A stretch of DNA of 43,221 nucleotides from a virus, in IMG/VR virus record IMGVR_UViG_3300002503_000014, positions 1-43,221 of that record; one strand, written 5' to 3'. Of this stretch, positions 2,103 through 37,071 are shown one piece after another (the stretch's first letter is position 1; the number at the start of each line of letters is the position of its first letter). The notes beneath the pieces are model-generated. The model was not told where the DNA came from and searched no databases. It saw only the letters and a list, made by a program, of their open reading frames with translations. The position numbers and the translations under genes are program-made.

Positions 2103-2459
2103 CTAAGTGGCGTCCTCACCCTTAGCTCCTGTCAAGGTCTCTGCAAACAACTCCCACGAACTACTATAGAGCGCTATATTACGCACAGTACCATCTACAT
2201 CAATTACTCTAGTTTGTAGGCTGTGTATTACCTCTTCTAATTTCTTATTTATTTTCACTATTGCTTTGAGCGATTCCGTACCTCCCCACAATATTAGAGT
2301 CTCTTGGGGGTGGGCGCACTGTGCAAATATGTGAAGTAGGAAATTAATAATCTGTTCCTTACCTACGTTATGCCTTTGAAATTCAGCCAATAGTTTTTTC
2401 AGTAGCGCATCACGGTCTGACAAAACCAGTAGAGACGGGCGGCTCTTACGTTCTTTCAT
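2103..2459 (-). CDS. Hypothetical protein
   Basis: A 118-residue soluble protein with no signal or membrane segment. A basic N-terminus (MKERKSRPS) is followed by a mostly helical pattern (DALLKKLLAEFQRH, KKLEEVIHSLQTR). The family is not recognised. Its ATG lies inside the stop region of the phosphatase gene upstream (4-base ATGA overlap), so it is co-translated with it. There are no cysteine knuckles, unlike its neighbours. Confidence 0.7.
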   Translation of the reverse strand: MKERKSRPSLLVLSDRDALLKKLLAEFQRHNVGKEQIINFLLHIFAQCAHPQETLILWGGTESLKAIVKINKKLEEVIHSLQTRVIDVDGTVRNIALYSSSWELFAETLTGAKGEDAT

Positions 2460-4012
2460 GCCTTAAACTCCTCCCATAGAATCGCTGGCCGCACATGATG
2501 TGTCTTTTCTGTACAGGATGTGCAGTAAATGTCGTCCGTCGTGTCGTTCCTTCCGTGTGGTCGTTCAATCATAGACTGTAGCATGGTACAACAACTCTTG
2601 CACTGCCAGTAGAACCCATTAGTCTCAAAATCTGCAAGCCTAGTGACTCCTCGACCCTGTGCCTCCTTCACCTTCTCCCTAAATGCTATTCGTCTTGCCT
2701 TACGCTGCTTCTTACCTTCCTTCTTCTCAGCCCGCGTCTTGTATTTCGTGCCTTGATTCTTATTAGTTGATGCACTAAGACTGACAGGAGCGGGCGGGGT
2801 AGGTTCACCAGCAAACCCGTAGATGAACGCTCGTTGTGCGTAGGTTTCGATGGCTTCTTGACAGTGGTTCTTTCGCACCAGGTTGATAGCATCTAGCGCC
2901 GTCATCTCTAACAACTCTACCGCCAACAGTGCCATGAACGTGCCCGTCCTGCCATGTCCCCCCATGCACCCAATGTCTACCTTCTTGCCCTCTTTTATTA
3001 GCTCTGTCGCAGCCTTGACAATGTGTAGTATGTATGGACTACGCGGTGCGCTCATGTCTGTCCAGTCGTAGAACAGGCACGGGAAAGCCACATCTATCTT
3101 TACCAATTCTCTTGGGAAGTCCGGCGTCACCGTCAGTTTATGCGACCACGAGATAGTAGAGAAGTAGAAGCCATAGTCCGGTCGTATGTCCGTGTCCTTC
3201 GCACTATTCTTATCGGAGGATGCAGAGGCATAGACAGTGTATTCTCCTAGTTTCACAGGGTCACGCCAGTGGTCGCAGTTGTGAAATCCTCCGCCGTACC
3301 ACTGTGAGTTCTCGTATCTCCCATAATTGTATACGTTGCTCCGGTGGTACGTGCTTGCCAGACTAGGTGTTACGCCCTGCCCTGTCCCAACCTCAGTGAA
3401 CGAACCATCAGACATTTTGCGAAATCTATGGAATCGTGTCTGCCCACAAACTAGGCACTCTAACTTAGGAGATGTATTGTTCGTCGTCCCCATGACCACA
3501 CGATAGAGAAACTTGTGCTGTTGGTTTGTGCCACATCTGGCACAGAAGATGTAATCCTCATCCTCTTCTTCTGTATCAGCGGGGTCGTTCTCATCGGTAG
3601 TGTCAGGTATGTTGAGCACGTTCTTCTCCCACCACACAAGGAACTCAAAATTTACACCATCTGAATACAGTTTCTCAATGCTAATGTCAGCTACGCTCAC
3701 GTCCTTGCCGAAAGTGGTCTTACACTTCACACAGATAGCATCGGCGTTGGTTGCTAGTCCGTCTTCTGATTCTAGTGCGTGGTATTCCACACTTCCACAA
3801 GTGAAACAGTATAGATTACCTCCCGCCCATACCTCTTGCTCTATACAAGTGCAGCACAAATCACACCGGCCACAATCATGACATAGGCACAAGTCACAGA
3901 CAGGGAATGTGTCACAGTTTGTTTCCTTGCAATAGTAAAGTAGCCCGTCGACTTTCATCTCTGTCTTACATAGCCTACAGTGTACCGCCTCAGTTGGTTT
4001 TGTTATTGTCAT
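2456..4012 (-). CDS. Protein tyrosine phosphatase domain embedded between zinc-ribbon segments
   Basis: 518 residues. The N-terminal 70 residues hold a dense cysteine array (C12/C15, C28, C33, C39-C55, C69/C72) reading like several treble-clef or ribbon fingers. Two further CxxC pairs follow at 94/97 and 157/160, with another at 186/189. The middle contains a protein tyrosine/dual-specificity phosphatase core. The P-loop is CMGGHGRTG, with nucleophile C349 and R355 in the CX5R spacing, preceded by a WPD-like acid loop DWTDMSAP (candidate acid D319). A Lys/Arg-rich linker (about 420-450) leads to a last ribbon (CKSCC at 471-475, CTSC at 497-500). Phosphatase activity is inferred from intact catalytic residues; the target is unknown. 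The neighbour upstream is another cysteine-rich giant. Confidence 0.82.
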   Translation of the reverse strand: MTITKPTEAVHCRLCKTEMKVDGLLYYCKETNCDTFPVCDLCLCHDCGRCDLCCTCIEQEVWAGGNLYCFTCGSVEYHALESEDGLATNADAICVKCKTTFGKDVSVADISIEKLYSDGVNFEFLVWWEKNVLNIPDTTDENDPADTEEEDEDYIFCARCGTNQQHKFLYRVVMGTTNNTSPKLECLVCGQTRFHRFRKMSDGSFTEVGTGQGVTPSLASTYHRSNVYNYGRYENSQWYGGGFHNCDHWRDPVKLGEYTVYASASSDKNSAKDTDIRPDYGFYFSTISWSHKLTVTPDFPRELVKIDVAFPCLFYDWTDMSAPRSPYILHIVKAATELIKEGKKVDIGCMGGHGRTGTFMALLAVELLEMTALDAINLVRKNHCQEAIETYAQRAFIYGFAGEPTPPAPVSLSASTNKNQGTKYKTRAEKKEGKKQRKARRIAFREKVKEAQGRGVTRLADFETNGFYWQCKSCCTMLQSMIERPHGRNDTTDDIYCTSCTEKTHHVRPAILWEEFKA

Positions 4013-4020
4013 TCGCTCTC

Positions 4021-5391
4021 CTATCTAAACGTGTGGGAACCAAACTGTTTCCACGCATGATAACGCTTAGTGTGTGGTTCTTCTTCCGGCAGATGCTTCT
4101 CAACGTACTCTATTCTACCCTCCAAGTTGGCATCGAGTATATCTTTGAGCCCATACGTCGTCCACAGTTTGTTGAATATGCAGCCGTTGTTATGCTCCAG
4201 TCCGAAAGCGGTATCAACAAATGTGACCACACTAATCTCACCCTCCTCGAACTGCCTGAGTGTGGCCGCCACTTGTGCCCAAGCATGACCACCTACTGAC
4301 CTTCCCCACTTGCCTTCTTCTAGAGCGTACTCCGCCTCTCTAAGAATGTCAGTGCCATACTCATCGCGCAGGGTTTTCCACTCTGCCCACGCCTTGCCTC
4401 GATTGATGTTACCATACTTACGATACCTTTTGTGTATTCTAGGCATCAGTCTCTTAGCCTCACCATCACCAATCGTCTCCGACCCATACCTAATCTCCCC
4501 ACCAACAGCCATGTCTAGATAAGGAGCAAAGACTTCGGCCAGTTCCTTCGCGTAGTTCTCAAACTCTTGCTTGTAGCTTGGGTCACGCTCGGCCATAGTT
4601 GCTAGAGTATAGAATGTGGCCGCCGCTTGGTGTAGCTTAAACACAATGGGCAACCCCCAATCTCCTACAGCCACATCAGATTCGGAATCGTGCCCGCAGT
4701 CACATTCACCGCTGCTAGTACACTCACCACAACGTCTGCATGAGTGGCAGCAATCAGTACAGGTGCCACAATCGCCACACCAAGAGGCGCTGCTAGTACA
4801 CTCACCACAACGTCTGCATGAGTGGCAGCAATCAGTACAGGTGCCACAATCGCCACACCAAGAGGCGCAGCTAGAACAACTCCGAACTCCACAGTCCCCG
4901 CAAACCGAAAACCCCCTCACGAACTCATTGCAGTCTGAACACCAATGGTCGCACCCCTCACACTCACACTCCGCACAATTTGGACACCTATTAGTATCTT
5001 CCTTGCATTCCTCACACTCTAATTGCAGTTTCCACAGGAATCTTTGCACAGCCGATAATAGGTCAAAAGTCTCCCCAGTAGATTGTGCTACCTTTTCGGC
5101 AGTTTGGTAATGCTTCGCACACCAATACAAGCCCTCGATACTTCTCGTTCCCTCAAATAGACAGATTACACAAGACAGAGAATGGGCAGAGACAAGGGCA
5201 TCATGCATTTGTACCATATACATAAATGGTGCATCCGCATATCCTAATGTTCCTGCTAATCTGATTATTTCGTTGTAGCAGTCCTTACAGAGATAAACAT
5301 CCTCCTTGTATTGTTTTATGTTACGCGGTTCTGAAAGAGTCCAAGTAACAACAGCAACACCATGTCCAAAGATGCATTGAGGTGCGTTCAT
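4021..5391 (-). CDS. Cysteine-rich multi-knuckle protein with exact internal duplication
   Basis: 456 residues starting at ATG 5391 behind CAGGAG. Residues 1-100 contain CKDC, CVIC and CAKH metal-type knuckles. Residues 126-232 are almost a continuous array of CxxC pairs, including two identical 26-residue units (176-201 and 202-227). The C-terminal half (about 240-456) has no such array and looks like an ordinary alpha-helical globular domain with many Trp and Tyr. I know no matching family. A role in metal binding, protein interaction or host takeover is inference only. The gene precedes the phosphatase gene with a 9-bp gap and is co-transcribed with it. Confidence 0.8.
   Translation of the reverse strand: MNAPQCIFGHGVAVVTWTLSEPRNIKQYKEDVYLCKDCYNEIIRLAGTLGYADAPFMYMVQMHDALVSAHSLSCVICLFEGTRSIEGLYWCAKHYQTAEKVAQSTGETFDLLSAVQRFLWKLQLECEECKEDTNRCPNCAECECEGCDHWCSDCNEFVRGFSVCGDCGVRSCSSCASWCGDCGTCTDCCHSCRRCGECTSSASWCGDCGTCTDCCHSCRRCGECTSSGECDCGHDSESDVAVGDWGLPIVFKLHQAAATFYTLATMAERDPSYKQEFENYAKELAEVFAPYLDMAVGGEIRYGSETIGDGEAKRLMPRIHKRYRKYGNINRGKAWAEWKTLRDEYGTDILREAEYALEEGKWGRSVGGHAWAQVAATLRQFEEGEISVVTFVDTAFGLEHNNGCIFNKLWTTYGLKDILDANLEGRIEYVEKHLPEEEPHTKRYHAWKQFGSHTFR
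4712..4867. repeat. Two exact tandem copies of a 78-bp coding unit
   Basis: Units 4712-4789 and 4790-4867 read identical base for base. Each encodes 26 residues in frame within the cysteine-rich protein (ASWCGDCGTC and following). The lack of any synonymous difference implies a recent duplication or ongoing unequal exchange. Removing one unit would keep the frame open. Confidence 0.95.
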
Positions 5392-36756: not shown

Positions 36757-36785
36757 ATTATACACCATCCCTCGTTGTTTGTCAA
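36757..36785 (-). promoter_or_regulatory. Promoter for ribonucleotide reductase
   Basis: TTGACA (36785-36780), 17 bp, TATAAT (36762-36757) on the minus strand; start near 36750. The leader contains CCTCCCCCGCTC, complementary to the GCGGGGG of the other leaders. Confidence 0.9.
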
Positions 36786-36907: not shown

Positions 36908-36985
36908 TGGAGTAGGGGATGGGACTCGAACCCACAACTTGCTGAGTCACAGTCAGCCGGTCTACCATTTGACCGCTACCCCTAC
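36908..36985 (-). tRNA. tRNA-His (GTG), atypical
   Basis: 78 nt including an encoded CCA. Acceptor GTAGGGG/CCCCTAC, anticodon arm GCTGA-CTGTGAC-TCAGC with anticodon GTG, T arm GTGGG-TTCGAGT-CCCAT. The D arm is unusual (5-bp stem CGGTC/GACCG with loop AAATGGTA). Histidine tRNAs normally carry G at -1 and C73; here these are A and T, so charging by the host enzyme is uncertain. Begins 4 nt after the tmRNA-like RNA. Confidence 0.8.
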
Positions 36986-36989
36986 TTTT

Positions 36990-37071
36990 TGGTGGAGCCG
37001 GTGGGTGTCGAACCCACGTCCTGAGTACGTCCTTTTCAGGCTTTACTACTCAGTCGAACCCTCGCGGCCCC
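36990..37071 (-). ncRNA. Minimal tmRNA-like RNA lacking the messenger domain
   Basis: 82 nt. Acceptor GGGGCCG/CGGCTCC with the G3-T70 pair that defines alanine identity, A73 and an encoded CCA. The D-loop analogue reads GAGGGTTCGAC, as in tmRNA 5' ends, and the T arm is GTGGG-TTCGACA-CCCAC after GGAC, as in tmRNA 3' ends. In between, a 7-bp P2-like helix (CTGAGTA/TACTCAG) is closed by a short hairpin instead of the tag reading frame and pseudoknots. It does not fold as a normal tRNA: no proper D arm or anticodon stem. Starts one base after the stop of the upstream gene. Confidence 0.75.

Follow-up and report, generated by a model that had tools for sequence, protein, structure and literature searches.

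To our knowledge, trans-translation is nearly universal among bacteria, and phage infection plausibly yields many broken mRNAs. The alanine that tmRNA receives by way of a G-U pair lets EF-Tu carry it, together with SmpB, into ribosomes at the end of an mRNA (PMC8363625). One phage-encoded tmRNA that lacks the message is already known: mycobacteriophage DS6A is listed as encoding a tRNA-like domain (TLD) only (PMC4131195, PMC11915505), with little beyond the TLD and no tag, and these sources present it as a proposed or shown inhibitor of the host tmRNA. A DS6A-like TLD-only molecule is said there to inhibit tmRNA strongly in E. coli (Mao 2009, as cited in PMC4131195 and PMC11915505), and to do so independently of alanine charging (Mao 2009, as cited in PMC4131195). 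The plastid CDS-less tmRNAs of Mallomonadaceae, of about 65 bp, are likewise shrunk to the TLD without a tag, but are organelle genes of which two sequences are reported (PMC11915505). Mitochondrial tmRNA (RF02544; Jacob 2004 and Hafez 2013, as cited in PMC11915505) also has no tag reading frame according to that account, but is usually permuted and organelle-encoded, with SmpB encoded in the nucleus. The 2025 tmRNA database holds 9 unique “standard, no CDS” sequences in total (PMC11915505). A description of a wider phage family of TLD-only tmRNAs was not found in the open-access literature searched, and publications outside it could exist.

The window analyzed here is the whole 43,221-nt stretch of IMG/VR virus record IMGVR_UViG_3300002503_000014. 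Its minus strand, from 37071 (the RNA 5′ end) to 36990, encodes a complete tmRNA TLD without a messenger domain, 82 nt in length, which we refer to as the mini-tmRNA; a sequence-only reading had described it earlier without giving a strand. In RNA order it reads GGGGCCG-CGAGGGUUCGAC-UGAGUA-GUAAAGCCUGAAAAGGACG-UACUCA-GGAC-GUGGG-UUCGACA-CCCAC-CGGCUCC-A-CCA. The acceptor 5′ strand GGGGCCG (37065–37071), with G3 as its third base, forms 7 of 7 pairs with 36994–37000, including G3-U70; the 3′ portion (36990–37000) comprises CGGCUCC with U70, the discriminator A73 and an encoded CCA, so that the alanine identity elements (7-bp acceptor, G3-U70, A73) are present in the sequence. The D-arm analogue CGAGGGUUCGAC (CGAGGG + UUCGAC, 37053–37064) contains the equivalents of E. 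coli U17 and G19, and the A of GGAC (37018–37021) is the equivalent of A334 in the SmpB Trp122 pocket (PMC8363625); the nucleotides predicted to contact SmpB are thus present in the sequence. The T arm, GUGGG-UUCGACA-CCCAC with 5 bp (37001–37017), is evident from the sequence and the Rfam match described below. Helix 2 has 7 bp (a C-G and six further pairs), formed by C-UGAGUA (37047–37053) and UACUCA-G (37021–37027), and only 19 nt separate its arms: these include the A-rich 5′ side of an internal loop, GUAAAG (37041–37046), and a small closing hairpin, CCU-GAAA-AGG (37031–37040), at the place of the messenger and pseudoknots. The tRNA-like ends, and the replacement of the messenger domain by a 7-bp helix and short hairpin, are therefore as the sequence-only reading had them, whereas its remark that it knew of no phage example overlooked DS6A. 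Since the mRNA-like domain (resume codon, tag, stop codon and pseudoknots) is absent, the mini-tmRNA is not a full, tagging tmRNA. Canonical one-piece tmRNA (RF00023) shares the acceptor with G3-U70, UUCGAC, GGAC, the T arm and helix 2, but is about 360 nt long versus 82 nt, and has PK1–4, a resume codon, a tag and a stop codon. The T. thermophilus TLD fragment, PDB 2CZJ (5′ 25 nt + UUCG + 3′ 34 nt; PMC3929946), has the same hairpin-closed architecture, but is a construct for crystallography, whereas the phage RNAs evolved and have a longer helix 2 and an A-rich loop.

Rfam 15 assigned the mini-tmRNA to RF00023 with 61.7 bits against a gathering score of 47 (E = 3.5e-23 with 2 kb searched, 7.6e-22 for the whole window). 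The match spans model positions 1–374 with the middle deleted, 19 nt replacing 310 model positions, and the competing tRNA-clan models score lower; the covariance search that the earlier reading had proposed as a check thus returned a tmRNA rather than an ordinary tRNA. The two-piece (permuted) model RF04321 was rejected, as it reached 22.5 bits, below the cut-off of 47, and the gene runs in the order 5′ to 3′. Compared with dinucleotide shuffles, the RNA has a more stable predicted fold (z = −2.8), but the T arm is not reproduced by the unconstrained minimum-energy fold. ARAGORN missed the mini-tmRNA, its sole call at the locus being a tRNA-His(GUG) 4 nt downstream (36908–36985, minus strand; RF00005, 41.9 bits), which is probably on the same transcript. 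Apart from these two, the whole-window Rfam search returned nothing, and no second tmRNA. An ORF of unknown family with no Pfam match (37462–37073) ends beside the mini-tmRNA on the other side from the tRNA-His, and the window encodes phage genes, including a terminase and a major capsid protein. The same stretch occurs in three further IMG/VR contigs at 99.97–100% identity, which makes an assembly error unlikely. Judged from its sequence, the mini-tmRNA is a phage-encoded tmRNA reduced to the TLD; like the DS6A RNA, to which we liken it by the published description (Mao 2009, via Table 2 of PMC4131195 and PMC11915505), it has both TLD ends and no tag.

Relatives were collected with two patterns in IMG/VR. 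The first, requiring tmRNA ends with 18–48 nt from UUCGAC to GGAC, matched 98 viral contig stretches, and the second, with the acceptor wholly free, gave at least 119 matches; by these scans, well over 100 IMG/VR contigs carry mini-tmRNAs. A structural parse of the pattern matches listed, the cultured phages and the bacterial contigs, in which at least 6 acceptor pairs were required, returned at least 117 distinct sequences, with all 7 acceptor pairs in 116 of 117; the exception (L117) seems to miss some nucleotides close to the T arm, probably through an error. The few second-pattern matches that failed the acceptor requirement resemble chance matches or ordinary tRNAs. Among the matches listed, the lengths of the 116 distinct mini-tmRNAs show a sharp peak at 80–84 nt, and CCA is encoded in 29 of 117. 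The loci fall into 64 sets by nucleotide sequence and into 43 when at least two proteins in common are required (a rough ORF-based clustering), and we conclude that unrelated phages carry the mini-tmRNA. Of the 116 loci, 24 have a tRNA no more than 500 bp away, versus 8.5% expected at random, and most loci have no other tRNA within the stretch fetched. All 50 virus records tested, four cultured phages included, scored above the RF00023 cut-off, and each of these records, which may be fragments, contained exactly one tmRNA-class match over the cut-off when searched in full. We therefore rejected a split tmRNA encoding the messenger at another site, as neither the window nor the 50 records contain another such match. 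A phage-encoded SmpB partner was rejected likewise: SmpB is encoded neither in the window nor in any of the 50, possibly fragmentary, records, while a control search found it in 10 of 10 bacteria, and host SmpB would therefore be needed.

Several relatives depart from the common size. A second class of 108–127 nt from viral loci (L176, L182, L187, L188, L189) has an intact acceptor, G3-U70 and T arm, is too short for a normal messenger domain, and contains an insert that may fold into a further pseudoknot or into hairpins; the four members tested (L176, L182, L188, L189) score 54–71 bits, all above the tmRNA cut-off. The shortest members, at 70–72 nt (L154, L158, L139), have a plain hairpin as helix 2 and resemble the TLD fragment engineered for crystallography. 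Four others of 92–98 nt (L123, L127, L165, L071) have a longer helix 2 with unrelated inner sequence, possibly of separate origin.

Conservation was assessed separately for each part of the molecule. G3-U70 and A73 are present in 116 of 116 accepted relatives among the matches listed. Of these 116, 52 distinct sequences do not match the first pattern and were therefore not selected for G3-U70 by it; all 52 have the pair, although a handful of them come from a bacterial-genome or gap-variant scan in which the 3′ end was fixed as CTCCA or TCCA. Pairs 4 to 6 of the acceptor covary (pair 4 being GC, CG, UA or AU), while pair 3 is invariant. For helix 2, on which the searches were not conditioned, we used 79 sequences of less than 85% identity, 76 of them with a middle long enough: the outer four pairs are formed in 75, 74, 70 and 70 of 76, where independence of the two sides would predict 31–40, and partners shifted out of register pair in just 34–39% in the same sequences. 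In E. coli tmRNA, A15, U17 and A334 make up the pocket that receives SmpB Trp122, and binding depends on G19 (PMC8363625). With GGAC left free, the A334-equivalent was kept in 89 of 89 distinct matches with a good acceptor and T stem; 64 of these read GGAC, many by way of earlier scans that fixed it, so the evidence lies in the 25 with another sequence (GGAG, GUAC, GGAA, GGAU, GCAC, GAAC), in which the letters around this A vary. A scan that left the D loop free gave divergent relatives with sequences such as UAUCGAC, UCUCGAC, UUUUGAC and UUUAGAC; read by eye, about 27 divergent relatives keep U17 and G19 with one or two exceptions, while U16 and C18 vary. The acceptor, G3-U70 and D-loop motif, whose loss in related phages would have spoken against the earlier reading, are thus retained. 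These comparisons show, at the level of sequence, that selection maintains both ends, the G3-U70 acceptor, helix 2 and the SmpB-contact nucleotides, and the invariant G3-U70 suggests that the charged form matters.

We also considered where mini-tmRNAs occur beyond uncultured viruses. A comparable pattern with a relaxed T arm matched 5 contigs in 84,980 bacterial and archaeal genomes, versus at least 98 viral ones. At least two of the 5 contigs are phage-like: in a protein scan of four of them (L168, L170, L171, L172; L169 was left out), L170 encoded a terminase, and L172 combined a phage-type DNA ligase and a deoxyribonucleotidase with a large tRNA cluster, while L168 and L171 gave no match. 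Five cultured phages carry unrecognised copies, namely Streptomyces phages LuckySocke, GiJojo, pSt2308 and BRock, and Stenotrophomonas virus Jojan60; these score 57.1 to 64.5 bits with RF00023 and are sited in tRNA clusters, and with such examples the function can be tested now. In GiJojo (L386), a hypothetical protein (gene 44) annotated across the mini-tmRNA at 599–841 is probably a false gene. Streptomyces phage Alone3 (L395, about 274–353) has a related copy with two T-stem mismatches, apparently decaying in the same tRNA cluster. Other BLAST matches were set aside as look-alikes. Those in the cultured phages Pelagibacter phage HTVC008M (L388), Caulobacter phage CcrPW (L389), Synechococcus phage BUCT-ZZ01 (L391) and Stenotrophomonas phage QDWS359 (L387) are permuted tmRNAs, which score above the Rfam cut-off, are unannotated as tmRNA and lie partly under “hypothetical protein” CDSs. 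Those in a mycobacteriophage (Niklas) and a Thermus phage (Lalka8) are 3′-end pieces beside integrases, unlike the two-ended mini-tmRNA; other mycobacteriophage matches were left out of this examination. For a Mycobacterium MAG locus, a nucleotide relative among phages was not found.

Our preferred reading, held with moderate confidence and drawn from sequence comparison, is that the mini-tmRNA is an alanyl, SmpB-borrowing decoy on stalled ribosomes. Host RNases would trim it from a tRNA transcript, host AlaRS would charge it with alanine, and host SmpB and EF-Tu would bind the charged form, which would then enter ribosomes stalled on broken mRNA where host tmRNA would otherwise do so. Lacking a resume codon, a tag and a stop codon, it could not direct tagging and would for that reason occupy SmpB and the stalled ribosomes; the charged form could receive the nascent chain, perhaps with the addition of one or more uncoded alanines. 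Trans-translation would thereby be inhibited or rerouted during infection. In a reconstituted system, the TLD with SmpB is described as performing alanine transfer and template-free polyalanine synthesis (Shimizu and Ueda 2006, as cited in PMC2481249 and PMC3929946). The earlier suggestion of a block of host trans-translation agrees with the DS6A work as reported, although the one-alanine tag that accompanied it does not stand (see below). Inhibition by a TLD that needs no charging would on its own leave the invariant G3-U70 unexplained. A more specific proposal, which we put forward tentatively as something less than an even chance, is a widespread class of phage-encoded, alanine-charged template-free tRNAs that, with host SmpB, would take over stalled chains, add uncoded alanine and avert tagging and destruction. 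If true, the phages would have a dedicated counter to, or takeover of, trans-translation.

Counting against the decoy, the same sequence signature would come from a real rescue function. In such a productive, tag-less rescue, modelled on the presumed role of messenger-less mitochondrial tmRNAs, the charged mini-tmRNA would release or recycle stalled ribosomes for the phage, with release by ArfA, ArfB or drop-off. The invariant G3-U70 and SmpB contacts would fit, as would the co-occurrence of SmpB with mitochondrial tmRNA that has no tag frame (PMC11915505) and the ability of the TLD alone to function as a tRNA on the ribosome (PMC2481249). We nevertheless regard it as unlikely: a TLD-only molecule in E. 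coli is reported to inhibit tmRNA rather than help (PMC4131195), and H. pylori does not survive mutation of the resume codon (PMC2584231), an argument that in this species at least rescue is not efficient when that codon is missing. Less likely still is a pure SmpB sponge, binding SmpB away from host tmRNA with alanine irrelevant. TLD-only inhibition is reported for chargeable and non-chargeable forms alike, perhaps via SmpB titration (PMC4131195), but a sponge would have no need of AlaRS identity, and G3-U70 and A73 are nonetheless kept throughout the 116 accepted sequences, in contrast to the free variation at pairs 4 to 6 of the acceptor; we therefore argue that charging matters and that a plain sponge is not the whole story. 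The bacterial tmRNA gene, ssrA, is a common integration site, and the mini-tmRNA could accordingly be functionless, either the remnant of a host tmRNA after decay or an attP site copying the 3′ end of that tmRNA, as the integrase-adjoining piece in Niklas and the mismatched Alone3 copy might suggest. This we consider very improbable, since the compensatory changes in helix 2 across the 79 divergent sequences, with both ends present, contradict it, and the sharp length peak also stands against it.

The inner sequence bears on the proposal that the mini-tmRNA is a minimal real tmRNA whose loop encodes one alanine and a stop. GCC UGA is indeed present in the window, and GCCUGA in L170 as well, but in the window it sits within CCU-GAAA-AGG, where UGA is part of a U-A pair and the GAAA tetraloop. 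Among the matches listed, just 8 of the 116 distinct middles contain GCN-stop, at shifting places, and no resume codon, tag or reading frame is conserved across these 116 relatives; we rejected the mini-tag, which is barely credible on these counts. What most relatives do have is an A-rich stretch (AAAR) upstream of an inner hairpin whose stem and loop change, such as CCG-CACG-CGG, CCC-GCAA-GGG or CCA-CAAG-UGG. PK1 of tmRNA is described as replaceable by a small stable hairpin (Tanner 2006, as cited in PMC3968760), and by analogy the inner hairpin may play the role of pseudoknot 1. Finally, that an ordinary tRNA was misread as a tmRNA, as its place beside tRNA-His and its canonical T arm might suggest, has a negligible chance, given that the tmRNA model outscores RF00005, ARAGORN calls no tRNA at the mini-tmRNA, and a normal D stem and anticodon arm are absent.

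Before this analysis, a phage RNA that obstructs or redirects ribosome rescue was known from one mycobacteriophage, seemingly treated as a curiosity. In comparison with that single case, we find a broad family, mostly of 80–84 nt with an A-rich loop and inner hairpin; what is new, on the sequence comparisons above, is that TLD-only tmRNAs are common in phages and under strict selection, with G3-U70 invariant. More than 100 distinct relatives with strictly conserved AlaRS and SmpB signals point to a family maintained by selection. ARAGORN is widely used for phage tmRNA annotation, and its misreporting of mini-tmRNA genes amounts to a blind spot, although the Rfam tmRNA model catches them.

Three further features of the window's minus strand, away from the mini-tmRNA, were recorded. 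Between the tRNA-His and a ribonucleotide reductase gene, 36757–36785 is a 12/12 match to the sigma-70 consensus TTGACA-17-TATAAT. The ORF at 4021–5391 is cysteine-rich and contains an internal near-exact protein repeat (ASWCGDCGTCTDCCHSCRRCGECTSS twice), and the ORF at 2456–4012 has a weak Pfam tyrosine/dual-specificity phosphatase match within cysteine-rich sequence.
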